Shown piece after piece: positions 5,255-45,171 of a DNA stretch of 64,000 bases. The notes beneath the pieces were generated by a model. That model was not told the origin of the DNA and ran no database searches. It saw only the letters and a list, made by a program, of their open reading frames with translations. Made by a program: the position numbers and the translations under genes. Position 1 is the stretch's first letter. The number at the start of each line of letters is the position of its first letter. The stretch comes from Thermosulfuriphilus ammonigenes (GTDB lineage Bacteria; Desulfobacterota; Thermodesulfobacteria; Thermodesulfobacteriales; ST65), in NCBI RefSeq assembly GCF_011207455.1, contig NZ_CP048877.1:2162576-2226575 (forward strand), written 5' to 3'.

Positions 5255-5351
5255 CTTTAAAACTATAGGTCCAAAACTTTGTCGAAGACAAGCAACTCTT
5301 TCCTCTAGACCTTGACATTAAAGAGCCCCCTAGTTTTTAATCAAAGAGAGA

Positions 5352-5540
5352 CTCCAGGTGCCCTTAAGGGGTTAAACGGGAAGTCCGGTGCAAGTCCGGC
5401 GCTGGCCCGCAACCGTGACCGGGGACGAACGCCGCTAGGCCCGGAGGGGCAAGCCTTCGGGTGACAGGCCACTGGGGCCGGGAGGCCCCGGGAAGGCGCG
5501 GCAAGTAGGTTGATCCGGAAGCCGGGAGACCGGCCTGGAG
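5352..5540 (+). promoter_or_regulatory. Cobalamin riboswitch 1 (upstream of the Ca-loop protein/exbBD/tonB operon)
   Basis: The cobalamin aptamer is recognisable from AAGTCCGGTGCAAGTCCGGC, GCCCGCAACCGTGA, the GGCCACTGG-type core, GGGAAGGCG and the B12 box GAAGCCGGGAGACCGGCC. The closing P1 helix is CTCCAGG (5352-5358) with CCTGGAG (5534-5540). A GC-rich hairpin (about 5548-5556 with 5570-5579) follows as a possible expression platform, but it has no U tract. Start codon control or Rho-linked control of the downstream operon is likely. The core is almost identical to the second copy at 9338-9527. Confidence 0.95.
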
Positions 5541-5685
5541 ACCTTCTGGGGCGGACTTCGGGGCTTCCTGTCCGCACCCTGGAAACCCTCCTTCTCTTTC
5601 AGGAAGGCCCCAGGCGAGCCCCAAAAGATTCTCTGGTGTAATTTTTATAAAATTCGTGTTATCAAAAGAGGCAAGGAGGGCAGGG

Positions 5686-9277: not shown

Positions 9278-9337
9278 AGATTCATTTTTCTTGCCTTTGG
9301 CGGTGTTTCATCGTATTTTCCCTGGGAAAAGACTTGG

Positions 9338-9527
9338 CCTTCAGGTGCCCCCTGGGGGAGAATCGGGAAGTCCGGTGCAAGTCCGGCGCTGGCCCGCAAC
9401 CGTGACCGGGGACGAACGCCGCTAGGCCTGGAGGGCAAGCCTCCGGGTGACAGGCCACTGGGGCCGGGAGGCCCCGGGAAGGCGCGGCAAGTAGGTTGAT
9501 CCGGAAGCCGGGAGACCGGCCTGAAGG
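9338..9527 (+). promoter_or_regulatory. Cobalamin riboswitch 2 (upstream of acsE-acsV)
   Basis: The same cobalamin aptamer as at 5352-5540, differing at only three positions over about 160 bases of core (one C/T, one single-base deletion, one T/C), all in one hairpin and all compatible with pairing. The closing P1 helix has a different sequence: CCTTCAGG (9338-9345) pairs with CCTGAAGG (9520-9527). It is followed by a strong hairpin (9539-9548 with 9564-9573) and a smaller one (9576-9581 with 9591-9596) before the acsE ribosome binding site. Confidence 0.95.
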
Positions 9528-9638
9528 TCTGTTTTAGAGGAAGCGGGGCTTCGAGGCTTCTGGCCTCGTTTCCGAGAAGGGTCTTTTATCCCCTTCCGGA
9601 AACCCCCCTTGATCCCAAAAAACCATAAGGAGGGAGTT

Positions 9639-38295: not shown

Positions 38296-38393
38296 GGAAG
38301 CGCCAGGGGCACTGGTGGCCCCCCCGGACTTCAAATCCGGTGTGCCGTCTGAGAAAGGCGGCAGGTGGGTTCGATTCCCATGCGCTTCCGCCA
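38296..38393 (+). tRNA. selC: tRNA-Sec (anticodon TCA)
   Basis: A 98-base tRNA with an 8-base-pair acceptor stem GGAAGCGC/GCGCTTCC, encoded CCA end (38391-38393), extended D stem GGGGC/GCCCC, anticodon stem CCGGA/TCCGG with loop CTTCAAA (anticodon TCA at 38331-38333, reads UGA), and a long variable arm (TGCCGTCT/AGGCGGCA). The long acceptor stem and variable arm identify selenocysteine tRNA. It shows the organism decodes UGA as Sec, which supports the three in-frame TGA genes at 43.5-45.2 kb. Confidence 0.98.
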
Positions 38394-38573: not shown

Positions 38574-38807
38574 CTACCGGCCGGAAGTCGCCGACTTAGG
38601 CGGGTTCATCAAAAAGCTGCTTAAGTTTGTCGGCGGCAAGGTGGACTTAACGGTCTGTGATCCTCGGGTCTGAATGCCCGGCAAACGCCTGGACAAGATA
38701 GATGGTTTTCCCCGGGCCACCGGCGGAACGTATTCCCAGCCGACCTCTCCGGCGTATCTTATGAGAGCGTCCTGGACGGCCATTCTTTCCGAACCGAGAG
38801 CTGCCAT
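38574..38807 (-). pseudogene. Remnant of type I restriction enzyme HsdR, N-terminus
   Basis: The minus strand encodes ERMAVQDALIRYAGEVGWEY, which resembles the start of HsdR subunits (typically a Q-[DN]-x-LIRYA-x-x-x-GW-E-Y pattern). The similarity breaks off after about 30 residues, and the downstream frames are unrelated and interrupted. No motor or nuclease domain remains, so this is a decayed fragment. The matching modification-gene fragment lies at 41238-41408 on the same strand. Confidence 0.6.
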
Positions 38808-38821
38808 CTTTATGGTTTTCT

Positions 38822-39244
38822 CTAATTTTCTCTAGTTTTACTTTTTGGGTCATTTTCCTCAGGAGCAATAAGTTTGAGCTTGGGAAAATAAAAACTATAA
38901 CGTTTGGCATCCCTGGTAAGAAGAACATAGCCACGCACGGCGGCATGGGCACCAATGTAGAAATCTGGAAGTGGAGAGGTTTTCTTGCCTCTTCGCTTTC
39001 TATAAAGGAGAAAACATTTTCCCGCCAAAAAAGCAGCTTCCCAGGGAAGCTCTTCCCTAACGAAAACCTCAGGTGGGAGAGCCTCTTTCTCAAATCTGAT
39101 AGAAATCTCCGCGTAGATTATGGGATTGATTATCAGCGTGTCTTTTTCCGCATATTCAGCCAGCTTCCGTGAAGACCACTCAAACCACTCCGGATCCTCG
39201 GTAAATATGTCCAGGATGACATTTGAGTCCACCAGAACGGGCAT
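38822..39244 (-). CDS. PIN-domain toxin (VapC-like), module 1
   Basis: A 140-residue PIN-domain protein: LVDSNVILDIF with the first acidic residue, NPIIYAEISIRF with the conserved Glu, and PDFYIGAHAAVRGYVLLTRD with the later acids. PIN toxins cleave RNA. The ATG at 39244 shares a base with the antitoxin stop (TGATG), giving antitoxin-toxin coupling. Confidence 0.88.
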   Translation of the reverse strand: MPVLVDSNVILDIFTEDPEWFEWSSRKLAEYAEKDTLIINPIIYAEISIRFEKEALPPEVFVREELPWEAAFLAGKCFLLYRKRRGKKTSPLPDFYIGAHAAVRGYVLLTRDAKRYSFYFPKLKLIAPEENDPKSKTREN

Positions 39245-39471
39245 CAATCCTCTCCACGGGTGAGGGCCATAATCTCATCGGTGGAAAGCTTGACCGCCCC
39301 GCGACCTCTCATGTGCTTTATAAGAAGCTCCCCTTTGCCGGGAAGGCTTTTCTTCACTAACTTGAGCCCCCCCTCTTCCGGAACAAATTCCACCTCCGGC
39401 CCCGGCCACAATCCAAACTTCTCGCGCCACTTTTTGGGAATGGTAACTTGCCCCTTGGCCGTTATTCTCAT
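39244..39471 (-). CDS. AbrB/MazE-type antitoxin, module 1
   Basis: A 75-residue protein with a SpoVT-AbrB swapped-hairpin DNA-binding domain at the N-terminus (MRITAKGQVTIPKKWREKFG) and a charged C-terminal tail that would bind the PIN toxin. It directly precedes its toxin. Such pairs repress their own promoter. Confidence 0.87.
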   Translation of the reverse strand: MRITAKGQVTIPKKWREKFGLWPGPEVEFVPEEGGLKLVKKSLPGKGELLIKHMRGRGAVKLSTDEIMALTRGED

Positions 39472-39504
39472 AATCCCACCTCAAGGTAAGAATTTTTTAC
39501 TCGG

Positions 39505-39900
39505 CTAAGGCCCGCATTTGCGCTGCAATTTTTCGTCAAAGGTTAAAATTTTTCCTTTTTGTTTTTGAGCTTTTACACACAGGAAACAATCAAGCAAGCT
39601 GAGGCCTTTTGATCCCAAAAATAAGTTGAAAGCTTCAAGAAGCAGCTTTTTATCTTTATTAACCACACCTTTATAAAGCAGAAGGTCTTTAAGGGCCTCT
39701 GCGGCTTCTTTTGCAGGAATACTATAGGTTAGGGTGAGCACATAAAAAGTTTCTAGGAAAACTTCCGGCAGGATAACGGCTTTCTCTTGGCCTTGTTTTA
39801 AGGTTTCAAAGAAAGGGCGAATCGCCTGATATTGTTCTTCAACGTCGGCCAGAAGATAACGCAAAAGGACATTGGTATCAGGGAAGGTTACGGTATTCAT
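39505..39900 (-). CDS. PIN-domain toxin (VapC-like), module 2
   Basis: A 131-residue PIN-domain protein: FPDTNVLLRYLLAD, ILPEVFLETFYVL, GLSLLDCFLCVKAQ and ILTFDEKLQRK carry the acidic residues. It overlaps the antitoxin gene by 23 bases in a different frame. It is distinct in sequence from module 1, so the modules are not a recent duplication. Confidence 0.88.
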   Translation of the reverse strand: MNTVTFPDTNVLLRYLLADVEEQYQAIRPFFETLKQGQEKAVILPEVFLETFYVLTLTYSIPAKEAAEALKDLLLYKGVVNKDKKLLLEAFNLFLGSKGLSLLDCFLCVKAQKQKGKILTFDEKLQRKCGP

Positions 39901-40114
39901 CCGCTACTTTTTGCCAGGCGATCTCACGCTCTTTCTCGTGGGAAAGAGGCTTCCTGACATACTTTTTGAATATTCCGCCCACATCTCTAACCGGTTCAAG
40001 GATGATCTTTCCTTCTATTACTCTGAACCGCACCATATTTGTACCGAGAAGCTCCCGTATCTTTTTGGGGATGGTAACCTGCCCTTTTGAAGTAATCTTT
40101 ACCAGCGCTTCCAT
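39878..40114 (-). CDS. AbrB-type antitoxin, module 2
   Basis: A 78-residue protein with an N-terminal SpoVT-AbrB domain (VKITSKGQVTIPKKIRELLG) and an acidic/aromatic C-terminal tail (REIAWQKVADEYRNLP). It is the partner of the PIN toxin it overlaps. Confidence 0.87.
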   Translation of the reverse strand: MEALVKITSKGQVTIPKKIRELLGTNMVRFRVIEGKIILEPVRDVGGIFKKYVRKPLSHEKEREIAWQKVADEYRNLP

Positions 40115-40117
40115 ACC

Positions 40118-40384
40118 TTACTCCAAAGAAAAATTCTTACTTTCAATCTTAACCCTTATCTTCCCGGTCATCAAATGGTGGAACAGGGTCTTGAGTTCTT
40201 TCTTCAGATGGCCGGCAATTCGGCTCACAGCGTCTTTGTTAATCTTGACCTTGAAAAGCCCAGCTGTAATAGTTTTTACCTCCCGTATTGCCCTCTAGAG
40301 ATACTGCTTGTAGCGCTCAAAGACCTCCGTAATGAAAGTTCCTTTTTGGTCCTGAGGGGCCCGGAGTTGTTTGATCTTGCCCAT
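40118..40384 (-). pseudogene. Remnant of an IS256-family (mutator type) transposase
   Basis: The minus-strand frame reads IKQLRAPQDQKGTFITEVFE, a stop codon, then REVKTITAGLFKVKINKDAV and SRIAGHLKKELKTLF. These resemble the region of IS256-type transposases containing the R-K-V-K-x-I-T-E-x-L-x-G motif and the helix-turn-helix after it. Only ~85 codons remain, with an internal stop, so the element is dead. It lies between toxin-antitoxin modules 2 and 3. Confidence 0.6.
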
Positions 40385-40436
40385 CTGAGTAAATTATGAT
40401 GATTAGCCTTACCCAACTATATTTTGTGAGAAAGAT

Positions 40437-40850
40437 TTAAAACACTTCCACACCACAGTTGCGGGCGGCTTTCTGGAGGGCCTGATCCAGGGTGGCCAGG
40501 GGTAGCCCCAAACGCATAGCCAGATTTAGATAGGCCGCGTCGTAAACGCTCAACCCTTCCTCTCGGGCCAGGAGCAAAATTTCACCCCAAACCCTTAAAA
40601 TGGTATCCCCCTCCACCTGAATGGGCAGTTCCTGAAGGAGGGAAAGAAAATTTTCCACCTCCGCCCGGGTGAGTCTCCTGCGGCGTTCGGCCATCAACAG
40701 GGCGTTGGCCACCTCAAGCGGCCAGATGGAAGGCACCCAGGCCCTTCCCTCACCAAGAGCATCCAAGACCTTTTCGGAGTAGAGATCTCCTTCGTCTTCC
40801 AGAGCCCAGGCTACGGTTACAGAGGCATCCAATACAAATTCCTGCTTCAC
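40437..40850 (-). CDS. vapC: PIN-domain toxin (VapC-like), module 3
   Basis: A 137-residue PIN toxin: FVLDASVTVAWALEDEGD, WVPSIWPLEVANALLMAERR, LSVYDAAYLNLAMRLGLPLATLD. This is the common VapC type associated with Phd-like antitoxins. Its start overlaps the antitoxin stop by 4 bases. Confidence 0.92.
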   Translation of the reverse strand: MKQEFVLDASVTVAWALEDEGDLYSEKVLDALGEGRAWVPSIWPLEVANALLMAERRRRLTRAEVENFLSLLQELPIQVEGDTILRVWGEILLLAREEGLSVYDAAYLNLAMRLGLPLATLDQALQKAARNCGVEVF

Positions 40851-41092
40851 ATTCGTCCCTCTTCAATCAGCTCTTTAATATCAAGCCCGTTTAATCTGTG
40901 TCTGTGCTTTTTCCGGAACTTTTTAATCTCCTCTATGACTTCTTCCACTTTTCGTCTTCTTTGAGGAGCTACGGGCTCTATCACCGCCACCGGAACTCCG
41001 CGCCGGGTAATTACAAACCTCTCCCCCCGAGCTACACGATCCAAAAGTTCAGAGAATTTGGTTCTGGCCTCATAAACCCCTATAATGGCCAT
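40847..41092 (-). CDS. Phd/YefM-type antitoxin, module 3
   Basis: An 81-residue protein beginning IGVYEARTKFSELLDRVARGERFVI (in parts), the Phd/YefM pattern, with RRGVPVAVIEP next and a basic/helical tail. It neutralises the coupled PIN toxin and likely represses the pair. Confidence 0.92.
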   Translation of the reverse strand: MAIIGVYEARTKFSELLDRVARGERFVITRRGVPVAVIEPVAPQRRRKVEEVIEEIKKFRKKHRHRLNGLDIKELIEEGRM

Positions 41093-43252: not shown

Positions 43253-43543
43253 ATGGATCAAGAAACCACGGCCCGCTTCTTTAAAGCCCTGGGAGACATT
43301 AATCGCTTACGAATTGTCTTTTTCCTCCTCCAGGGAGAGCGCTCTGTGGGACGATTAGTTGAAGAACTTGGCCTTTCTCAACCTCTGGTCTCCCACCATC
43401 TCAAGGAGCTCAAAATGGGAGGAGTAGTCAAAACCAGGCGAAAAGGCCCCTTTATTTATTACAGCCTCAAGGATCCCCGGCGAATGTTAGAGATTCTTGA
43501 ACAGGTCAAAAGGATTACCACCGGAGGGAACCATGGCTCTTAA
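43253..43543 (+). CDS. ArsR-family transcriptional regulator
   Basis: A 96-residue winged-helix repressor (FFKALGDINRLRIVFFLLQG, VGRLVEELGLSQPLVSHHLK, KTRRKGPFIYYSLKDP). It has no Cys pair of the ArsR/SmtB metal site, so it may sense something other than thiophilic metals. It overlaps the following Sec-containing gene by 11 bases and probably controls the selenoprotein group downstream. Confidence 0.92.
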   Translation: MDQETTARFFKALGDINRLRIVFFLLQGERSVGRLVEELGLSQPLVSHHLKELKMGGVVKTRRKGPFIYYSLKDPRRMLEILEQVKRITTGGNHGS

Positions 43544-43994
43544 GTACCAAGAATTAATTAAAGACCTAAGTCTAGAGGAAATCAAAGACCTCTTTTTGGC
43601 CCTGGCCTCACAGGTTTTTTCTCTTCTGGATGAGGAGTCTCAAAAGGAGATTGTCCTTCGGATGTTTGGCCATGAGGAGGGACAGATACCCTCGATGGTT
43701 TATTATTGACTGGCTAAGTGTCTTGACGCGGGAGTTGACCCGCGTTCCATGTGTCAGAGGCTGGTATCCACTGTAGATATAAGGAGAAAACTCTCCCAGG
43801 TGGCTCCAGAGGCCATAGTCAGCCTTTTTGAGGATTGGCTTGAAGAGCTAGAAGAGGCCATTTTAAACCATATTAAAGAGTATCCTACTATTTCTGATGA
43901 AGAGCTGGCTGAACAACTGAAGATCTCAAAGGAAGGGGTGACCTTTCTCCTTGACCGGATGGTCAAGGAAGGAAAGATTCGTTCTATTCCCTGA
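43533..43994 (+). CDS. Probable new selenoprotein with U-x3-C motif and winged-helix-like tail
   Basis: Read as Sec, the TGA at 43707-43709 joins two frames into one 153-residue protein: helical N-terminus, SMVYY-Sec59-LAKC63 (a U-x3-C redox-type motif), more helices (RKLSQVAPEAIVSLFEDWLE) and a C-terminal segment PTISDEELAEQLKISKEGVT that looks like a winged helix-turn-helix. Support: the same frame on both sides, no ribosome binding site before the internal ATG at 43749, a perfect SECIS-like hairpin 23 bases after TGA, and selC in the window. The ATG at 43533 follows GGAGGG and overlaps arsR by 11 bases. I do not recognise a family. Alternative: two small genes or a pseudogene. Confidence 0.75.
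43726..43745 (+). other. SECIS-like hairpin 1
   Basis: ACGCGGG (43726-43732) pairs perfectly with CCCGCGT (43739-43745) around the loop AGTTGA. The loop begins 23 bases after the in-frame TGA (43707-43709) and has G at its second position. Bacterial SelB-binding hairpins generally need a short upper stem about 16-37 bases past the UGA with a G in the first two loop positions. Confidence 0.72.
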
Positions 43995-44029
43995 TTTTTG
44001 TCCTTCCCAAAGATGAGCGCCTGAATTTT

Positions 44030-44090
44030 TCTTTTGATTTTTATAAATATATTTTTATATTCTTATATAAATTTCCGAAGGTAGGGAGGT
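44030..44090 (+). promoter_or_regulatory. AT-rich promoter region ahead of the DsrE-like gene
   Basis: The gap 43995-44094 contains a run almost purely of A and T (TATAAATATATTTTTATATT, then TTATATAAATTT) in an otherwise GC-richer window. It holds several possible -10 boxes and an imperfect dyad. It may carry a second promoter for the DsrE-like/DUF5714-like genes and possibly an ArsR-family operator; neither is defined. Confidence 0.4.
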
Positions 44091-44094
44091 AACT

Positions 44095-44415
44095 ATGAGG
44101 TTTTTGATCCTTATTTCCTCGGATAATCCAGAGGTGGTCTGGAATGCCTTCCGAATCTCTAACCTCATTCTGGATCAGGGAGATCAGGCCTCGGTATTTT
44201 TAAATGGTCCTTCGGTGGCCTACCAAAAAATAGATTCTCAAAGGTTTCCTATCAGGAAATTGGCCAGGGATTTAGTCCTCAAAGGTGGTCATCTTTGGGC
44301 TTGAGGTAAGTCTATGGCCATCCACGGGGTGGGTGAGGACGACTGCTTACGGAAGGGGACTCAGAAACTTCTCTACGACCTCTCTAAAGAGGCCGAAAAA
44401 ATAATCTCTTATTAG
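44095..44415 (+). CDS. DsrE-like selenoprotein
   Basis: With TGA 44302-44304 read as Sec70, the frame gives a 106-residue DsrE/DsrF-like protein: MRFLILISSDNPEVVWNAFR, then LKGGHLWA-Sec-GKSMAIHGVG, ending LLYDLSKEAEKIISY before TAG. In this family the equivalent position is a functional Cys (typical A-C-G-x-C). The length and ending after the TGA fit the family, while stopping at the TGA (69 residues) would lose its last third. A DsrE-like selenoprotein family is known from Desulfobacterota symbionts. The ATG follows GGGAGG. Proposed role: sulfur or selenium transfer or redox relay. Confidence 0.85.
44319..44335 (+). other. SECIS-like hairpin 2
   Basis: CATCCAC (44319-44325) pairs with GTGGGTG (44329-44335), one G-T pair, with the loop GGG (or CGGGG if the closing pair opens). 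The loop starts 21 bases after the TGA at 44302-44304 and begins with G. Confidence 0.65.
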
Positions 44416-44424
44416 GAAGGAACA

Positions 44425-45171
44425 CTGGGTAAGCTCTGCTGAAAGTCCAAAGAAAACCTTCCCGGGGTCTTCGGGAAGAAAAGTAATTGTTTTATCTGTG
44501 GGAAGCCTCTGCTTTACCTCAATGAAGGCCGATGGCTTCACTGCACGCTCTGTAACCAGGCGGTATTAGCCCACATCTTTTGCCCGGAAGGCCACTTTGT
44601 CTGCGAAAGCTGCCATAGAGAGCTGGCCGTAAAGGTAGCCCTTAAAATAGCAAAGGCCAATACCAGGCCGGACCCTATAGCGGTTACCACGGAGGTTCTA
44701 AAACGGACCAGTATTCCCATGCTTGGTTGCCACCACGCTTTTATAGCAGCCTTTTCTCTTCTTTCAGCCCTTAAGGCAGCAGGCCTCCCGGTTCCCCATG
44801 ACGCTTTTGAGGAAGTTTCCCAGAGGACAGGGGCCCAAGCCATAAGCGGATACTGTGGTCTTACAGGGATTTGCGGCCTGATACCGTCCCTTGGAGCCTG
44901 CTTGTCCTTTCTCGTTGGGGCTCGTTGCGGGACGAAAAGAGAACAAAAGATGGTAATGGAATTTAATCTTCGCCTCCTTGAAAAGATATATCTCTTGCCT
45001 GCTCCAAGTTGCTGTAAGGCCTATATGTGGGCTGGTCTCGAGGAGGCAGTGTTTTTCTTCTCAAAAAGTTTTTCCCTTAAAGGACTCTTGTTTTCAAAAC
45101 CCCTTTGTGAATTTTACAAAGACCATCCTCACGGATGTCCGGGGAGAAATTGCCCTTATTTTCCGACCTAA
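44425..45171 (+). CDS. DUF5714-like probable selenoprotein, non-ATG start
   Basis: The frame is open from just after the DsrE-like stop codon to 45171 if TGA 44440-44442 is read as Sec. No ATG, GTG or TTG lies between the upstream TAG and the TGA; CTG at 44425 follows AGGAAGG and is the best start, giving GKLC-Sec-KSKEN at the N-terminus. The rest resembles DUF5714: Cys pairs (CFICGK, CTLCNQ, CESCH), LGCHHAFIAAF, GYCGLTGICGLIPS, PAPSCCKAYMWAGLEEAVFF. A SECIS-like hairpin with loop GGGTCTT follows 22 bases after TGA. Without Sec decoding the only start is ATG 44719, which drops the Cys-rich N-terminal domain. Function of the family is unknown. Confidence 0.72.
44458..44478 (+). other. SECIS-like hairpin 3
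   Basis: CTTCCCG (44458-44464) pairs perfectly with CGGGAAG (44472-44478) around the 7-base loop GGGTCTT. The loop starts 22 bases after the TGA at 44440. The loop contains GGTCT, the same loop string found in the E. coli fdhF SECIS that SelB recognises. Confidence 0.78.

Follow-up and report, generated by a model that had tools for sequence, protein, structure and literature searches.

A divergent Tso-type locus with three predicted selenoprotein genes in Thermosulfuriphilus ammonigenes

The Tso ('three selenoprotein operon') system was named by Haft & Tolstoy (2025) and, to the extent that it is summarized in a 2026 review (PMC13188914), comprises TsoR-TsoA-TsoB-TsoC with TsoX/TsoY. Sec-containing DsrE-like proteins (PF02635) are also known, with UxxC given as the published motif in the same summary (PMC13188914). 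Among regulators, BigR, SqrR, SoxR and sHdrR are ArsR-type sulfane-sulfur repressors with two sensing cysteines, and regulators of this type control rhodanese and TauE genes (PMC5823870, PMC12423496). The NCBIfam family MbdU (NF045648) is a metal-binding double selenoprotein.

Here we describe a locus in which tsoA, a Sec-type dsrE and a member of the MbdU-like family occur together. It lies in a 64,000-nucleotide stretch of the Thermosulfuriphilus ammonigenes genome (the window, to which positions refer), within one contig of 2,287,345 bp. A preliminary description of this region had reported three consecutive plus-strand open reading frames, each with an in-frame TGA (43707, 44302 and 44440), behind an ArsR-family gene. 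The positions and the frame were confirmed, and the ArsR-family gene encodes a TsoR homologue (NF045707). The DsrE-like product had been assigned to a family with known Sec members, which PF02635 is; the other two had been taken for selenoproteins not known before, and this did not hold, as one is homologous to TsoA (NF045695) and the other to MbdU (NF045648) of NCBIfam. At the level of sequence the homology to TsoA, TsoR and MbdU is certain. The curated calls would not fire, the window proteins scoring below the cut-offs for TsoA (170) and MbdU (600) and slightly under that for TsoR (115); the DsrE-like protein scores above the Pfam gathering score of PF02635 (22.7).

The genome carries selA, selB, selC and selD, the full set expected of a bacterium that makes selenoproteins. 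The presence of selA and selB had been proposed as a check, and both lie with selD on the same contig as the window; selC, described as about 5 kb away, was found 4.9 kb upstream of the locus (Table 1). The selD gene (L010, G000:C1:748881-749804, G000 being this genome) has one in-frame TGA, and selenophosphate synthetase is probably a selenoprotein here too. Between selC and the tso locus, three PIN-domain-like/antitoxin-like gene pairs apparently stand in a row on the minus strand (38647-41092, by eye), and two cobalamin riboswitches lie 4 kb apart elsewhere in the window (5339-5552 and 9326-9538).

Table 1 Features of the tso-type locus and selC, with positions in the window.
Feature	Position	Strand	Evidence
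selC (selenocysteine tRNA, anticodon tca)	38296..38393	+	ARAGORN; Rfam RF01852, 76.4 bits
tsoR-like, ArsR-family winged-helix regulator, 96 aa, no cysteine	43253..43543	+	NF045707 (TsoR) 102.3 bits, E 1.2e-29
tsoA-like selenoprotein, 153 aa, U59 = TGA 43707-43709, motif YULAKC	43533..43994	+	NF045695 (TsoA) 125 bits, E 2.8e-36
SECIS-like hairpin of tsoA, GACGCGGG-AGTTGA-CCCGCGTT	43725..43746	+	1.3% of shuffles as good
Predicted TsoR operator, TTATAAAT-ATAT-TTTTATAT	44041..44060	.	14/16 to ATATAAAT-N4-ATTTATAT; 35 bp before dsrE start
dsrE-like selenoprotein, 106 aa, U70 = TGA 44302-44304, motif AUGKSMAIHGV	44095..44415	+	PF02635 24.7 bits
SECIS-like hairpin of dsrE, CATCCAC-GGG-GTGGGTG	44319..44335	+	covariation
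Shine-Dalgarno-like AGGAAGGA before CTG start	44414..44421	+	sequence; functional role putative
mbdU-like DUF5714 selenoprotein, 248 aa if CTG start, U6 = TGA 44440-44442	44425..45171	+	PF18978 122.6 bits; NF045648 (MbdU) 247 bits
SECIS-like hairpin of mbdU, CTTCCCGG-GGTCT-TCGGGAAG	44458..44478	+	0/300 shuffles as good

All three TGAs fall in columns where homologues carry Sec or Cys, which is more than chance would give, and the protein-like frame noticed earlier beyond each TGA is borne out by these homologues. TsoA matches were present in 45 of 395 sampled genomes of the phylum. The TGA is kept at the U59 column in 40/40 retrieved relatives, with conserved protein beyond it, and in an alignment of 34 TsoA proteins (25-46% identity to the window protein) V56, U59, C63, G67, P70, L87, F99 and W102 are invariant. 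The window protein has the U-x3-C motif of TsoA (LULAxC-type), with Y rather than L before the U. An earlier suggestion to look for Cys-aligned homologues was borne out for DsrE, whose relatives have Sec or Cys, and not for TsoA: since no full-length form with Cys at the Sec position was found among the retrieved relatives, it is conservation that points to a function of the TsoA Sec residue.

As had been described, a hairpin follows each TGA and has G among the first two bases of its loop; the loops start about 23, 21 and 23 bases after the TGA (22 for the third in that description). The same strong 8-bp stem of the tsoA hairpin is seen in two close relatives (L105 and L106). In mesophilic relatives the tsoA hairpins are weak by a simple stem score, so the argument for Sec in TsoA comes from the conserved UGA column. 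Compensatory changes were observed in the hairpins of the other two of the three families. For DsrE, 13 cells changed on both sides of the pair and 98.2% were paired, a percentage biased upwards because each stem was chosen by folding the sequence concerned; changes on both sides weigh more as evidence. For the MbdU-like family, compared in nine relatives with the window hairpin (5-base loop) left out, 24 cells changed on both sides and the covariation score was 1.18, against 0.22 in shuffles. The MbdU-like stems differ almost wholly in sequence between genomes and keep their pairing around a GGTC-type loop.

These observations bear on whether the TGAs could be ordinary stops or products of decay, leaving truncated small proteins or pseudogenes. 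The third reading frame (ORF3, mbdU-like) has no standard start codon, as that explanation would allow, yet the TGA column and the conserved protein after it in every TsoA relative, the Sec or Cys kept by the DsrE and MbdU-like relatives, and the covarying stems of these two families all speak against it, and we consider it highly improbable. Comparison with homologues shows instead that the UGAs in the TsoA-like, DsrE-like and MbdU-like (DUF5714) genes encode selenocysteine, as judged from the aligned sequences, and we regard it as virtually certain that all three products are true selenoproteins.

In the alignment of DsrE relatives (A3), every protein has U or Cys at the position of U70; some have TGA at the same column, in the context UGK...HGV or UGVC, and the others have Cys. 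The genome's own DsrE paralogue (G000:C1:1625972-1626283) is of the Cys form. A fusion of ORF2 with ORF3 was considered and is ruled out by a TAG at 44413. Elsewhere, one locus (L125, genome G134) has the order thioredoxin reductase-like, TsoR-like and Sec-DsrE without a TsoA match, and the neighbourhoods of many further Sec-DsrE genes (L126-L133) contain no Tso genes.

The match of the MbdU-like protein to NF045648 covers positions 37-266 of the 468 in the model, the first half of MbdU. The N-terminus contains a CU pair (KLCUKSK), followed by a zinc-ribbon-like CFIC...CTLC...CPEGH..C..C and a Cys/His-rich helical DUF5714 domain. The rare CTG start is the weakest point of the ORF3 gene model. 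No ATG, GTG or TTG stands between the preceding TAG and the ORF3 TGA, and the sole near-cognate start ahead of the TGA is the CTG at 44425, 15 bases before the U codon. A standard start was rejected, as there is none upstream of the TGA and the next in-frame ATG (44719) would cut the DUF5714 domain. The MbdU-like genes of relatives start at a genuine ATG and encode CU at the N-terminus (as in INQSCUAPED, KSGCUGADD and ICULPS), and an independent scan of named genomes found CU in 53 of 80 MbdU-like loci, from Desulfobacterota, Nitrospirota, Desulfosporosinus and others. The predicted model (pLDDT 83) comprises a zinc-ribbon-like part, a Cys/His-rich helical part and an N-terminus, modelled with low confidence, that contains the CU pair. 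Neither a sequence search nor fold searches with the model gave a convincing solved relative, an outcome that points to neither a new nor a known fold.

DUF5714 is also the C-terminal module of radical-SAM/ArsM-like methyltransferase fusions, which have a Cys-rich linker (e.g. CCAC, SCCSC) before DUF5714, where the MbdU-like protein has CU. Such fusions form ORFs of 1020-1130 aa in loci L088-L104; another (radical SAM + ArsM-like + DUF5714; L121:1551-4616, minus strand) is separated by about 355 bp from a Sec gene of the MbdU-like type. In two further loci (L107 and L108; genomes G216 and G300), a 296-residue MbdU-like protein has a second in-frame TGA at its very C-terminus (SSUA-stop), possibly a short double selenoprotein adjoining tsoA.

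Conserved synteny, another check proposed for this region, was found for the first two genes: tsoR is directly upstream of tsoA in all 38 relatives with enough upstream sequence, and in the window the tsoA start overlaps the tsoR end by 11 nt. On this comparative evidence of gene order, tsoR and tsoA are coupled and inseparable across relatives. Of the relatives that have the set, the closest two (G364 and G289) show the order tsoR-tsoA-mbdU-dsrE(Cys)-dsrE(Sec); others have tsoR-tsoA-dsrE(Sec) or tsoR-tsoA-mbdU. G161 and G298 contain canonical clusters in which TsoB (rhodanese/DsbD) and TsoC are present, the former also with TsoX. The search that was positive for TsoC in these two did not find it in the complete genome of T. 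ammonigenes, which gave only weak fragmentary hits to TsoB. Of the 56 Sec-type MbdU-like genes, 23 have TsoA at a distance of up to about 4 kb, versus 1 of the 24 others (Fisher p = 0.001, with the Sec and non-Sec classes settled by eye).

Cysteine is scarce in TsoR: no conserved Cys pair or metal-binding Cys motif was found in the 39 proteins compared, 33 of which carry at most one Cys and that of the window none. We predict from sequence that TsoR binds the palindrome ATATAAAT-N4-ATTTATAT, and that the site in the window fronts dsrE-mbdU. This site, between tsoA and dsrE, is the best operator match in the whole window, and its score is reached by 3 of 2000 dinucleotide shuffles of the tsoA-dsrE gap. 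Among relatives, 23 of 37 have a site of at least 13/16 (spacer 2-6) no more than 750 bp upstream of tsoA, against a random expectation of 1.8%, an enrichment that is partly circular, the consensus having been read by eye from the same upstream regions (the window was not used). In G364 and G289 a weaker site (13/16) also lies between tsoA and the next gene. Counting against an operator, the site is AT-rich and sits inside an AT-rich gap. Matches with two mismatches or fewer occur at four places genome-wide, with two hits per strand in a backward-read control, and the three other operator-like sites adjoin apparently unrelated genes; rarity alone is modest evidence, and it is position that counts. 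We would give repression through this site even odds. Because the 100-bp gap (72% A+T) with the predicted operator separates tsoA from dsrE, the tsoA, dsrE and mbdU-like genes are probably not on one transcript.

Similar sites were noted elsewhere. Two overlapping 13/16 matches lie just before the start of the Cys-type DsrE paralogue (L137); this gene, whose product has a signal-peptide-like N-terminus and whose neighbour codes for a FeoB-like GTPase, is a possible second target of TsoR. Upstream of ArsR - MbdU-like loci without tsoA in Formimonas and Desulfosporosinus (L222, L223) there are palindromes of the ATATAAAT-N4 type in tandem, which suggests that such operators occur in Firmicutes too.

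The predicted model of TsoA (pLDDT 86, pTM 0.52) has a helical domain with U59 and C63, then a winged helix that matches Lrp/AsnC-type domains such as 4pcq (Z 8.8, rmsd 2.1, 52 aligned). HTH_24 was detected in 12 of 34 TsoA members, and solved relatives found by sequence were mainly winged-helix hits. TsoA might be a Sec-based sensor subunit and transcription co-regulator, its Sec-x3-Cys supplying the chalcogen or metal reactivity that the Cys-poor TsoR lacks, with TsoR and TsoA together controlling DsrE and the MbdU-like protein via the ATATAAAT-N4-ATTTATAT operator. We think this unlikely; if TsoA is a sensor, we know of no other case of Sec use in gene regulation. Alternatively, TsoA could be no sensor but a partner of DsrE and the MbdU-like protein, acting as a Sec enzyme or as a chaperone, and only TsoR would respond to the ligand. 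In TsoA the recognition helix is hydrophobic (GAxFLLxK) and not polar, which is atypical for reading DNA; a winged helix can also mediate contacts between proteins, as in the CSN/proteasome hits of the fold search; and TsoA is found with TsoB, TsoC and TsoX as well, and these look like enzymes. Such a role is less easily squared with the coupling of tsoA to tsoR in every testable locus, where all other partners change, and we place it a little short of even odds.

The reading that we favour, with a probability of about 0.6, is a TsoR-repressed module predicted to bind and relay reactive sulfur or soft metal(loid)s. On this view dsrE-mbdU would stay repressed by TsoR in the absence of a thiophilic species, for which reactive sulfane sulfur (as persulfide or polysulfide) is the likeliest candidate and a soft metal(loid) the alternative. 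Sec-DsrE would carry the species or pass it on, and the MbdU-like protein, with numerous conserved Cys/His ligands and, at its N-terminus, a flexible Cys-Sec pair, would be the sink that binds it. TsoA, with its invariant Sec-x3-Cys and winged helix, would sense the species for the Cys-poor TsoR or deliver it. The preliminary description had proposed a dedicated redox or sulfur/selenium-handling system with one regulator; a dedicated system (redox, sulfur or metal) whose genes would be broken up by ordinary gene calling remains likely.

As to the ligand, the neighbours of Tso loci include TauE/SafE, thioredoxin, thioredoxin reductase and rhodanese/DsbD genes, each in only two or three loci. 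Because these are sulfur/thiol genes, sulfane sulfur is favoured, at slightly better than even chances; a metalloid, favoured because DUF5714-ArsM fusions exist, has a substantially smaller share. The locus could be one of soft metal(loid) defence, in which TsoR would answer As/Sb/Hg-type stress, the zinc-ribbon region and the Cys-Sec pair of the MbdU-like protein would bind the metal(loid), and DsrE and TsoA would take part as redox partners. This would fit the fusions and their Cys-rich linkers, the NCBI names 'metal-binding' for MbdU and 'metalloregulator' for TsoR, and the locus of G148, where a second gene of the ArsR family, with CVC in its sequence, is found 3-4 kb away. Both the missing metal-binding Cys motif of TsoR and the recurring sulfur/thiol neighbours argue against it, and we find it possible but on balance doubtful. 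The favoured module offers several parts that can be tested: the predicted operator, the Cys-poor regulator with a winged-helix selenoprotein, and the Cys-Sec metal- or sulfur-binding protein.

With TsoA, TsoR and the MbdU-like protein all under the curated cut-offs, the Tso kind of locus extends to a Thermodesulfobacteriales-type lineage. As in the described Tso system, tsoR precedes tsoA, the Sec lies in a U-LAxC motif and several selenoprotein genes stand together, but no TsoC was found in this genome, TsoB hits there are only fragmentary, and the locus has as partners a Sec-DsrE and a single-Sec MbdU-like protein; its predicted operator lies between tsoA and dsrE, not before tsoR, and the TsoA and TsoR scores set it apart as well. 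The homology of the window protein to MbdU spans the N-terminal half (247 bits), and both have the CU motif, but the window protein has one Sec in 248 aa instead of two in 468 aa and scores under 600. The DsrE-like protein is of the DsrE family and has Sec where others carry Cys, whereas its motif is UGKS and not UxxC, the second Cys being missing in the window and several near relatives. TsoR resembles the BigR group in being of the ArsR family, with the BigR profile among its best matches (52.5 bits), and relatives of the locus also lie beside rhodanese or TauE genes; unlike BigR and SqrR, it lacks the two conserved sensing cysteines. The family names are already published, and the locus arrangement is a divergent form, very probably a Tso-type variant; new here are the predicted TsoR operator between tsoA and dsrE, a TsoR without conserved Cys, and a TsoA that combines a Sec-x3-Cys helical domain with a winged helix.
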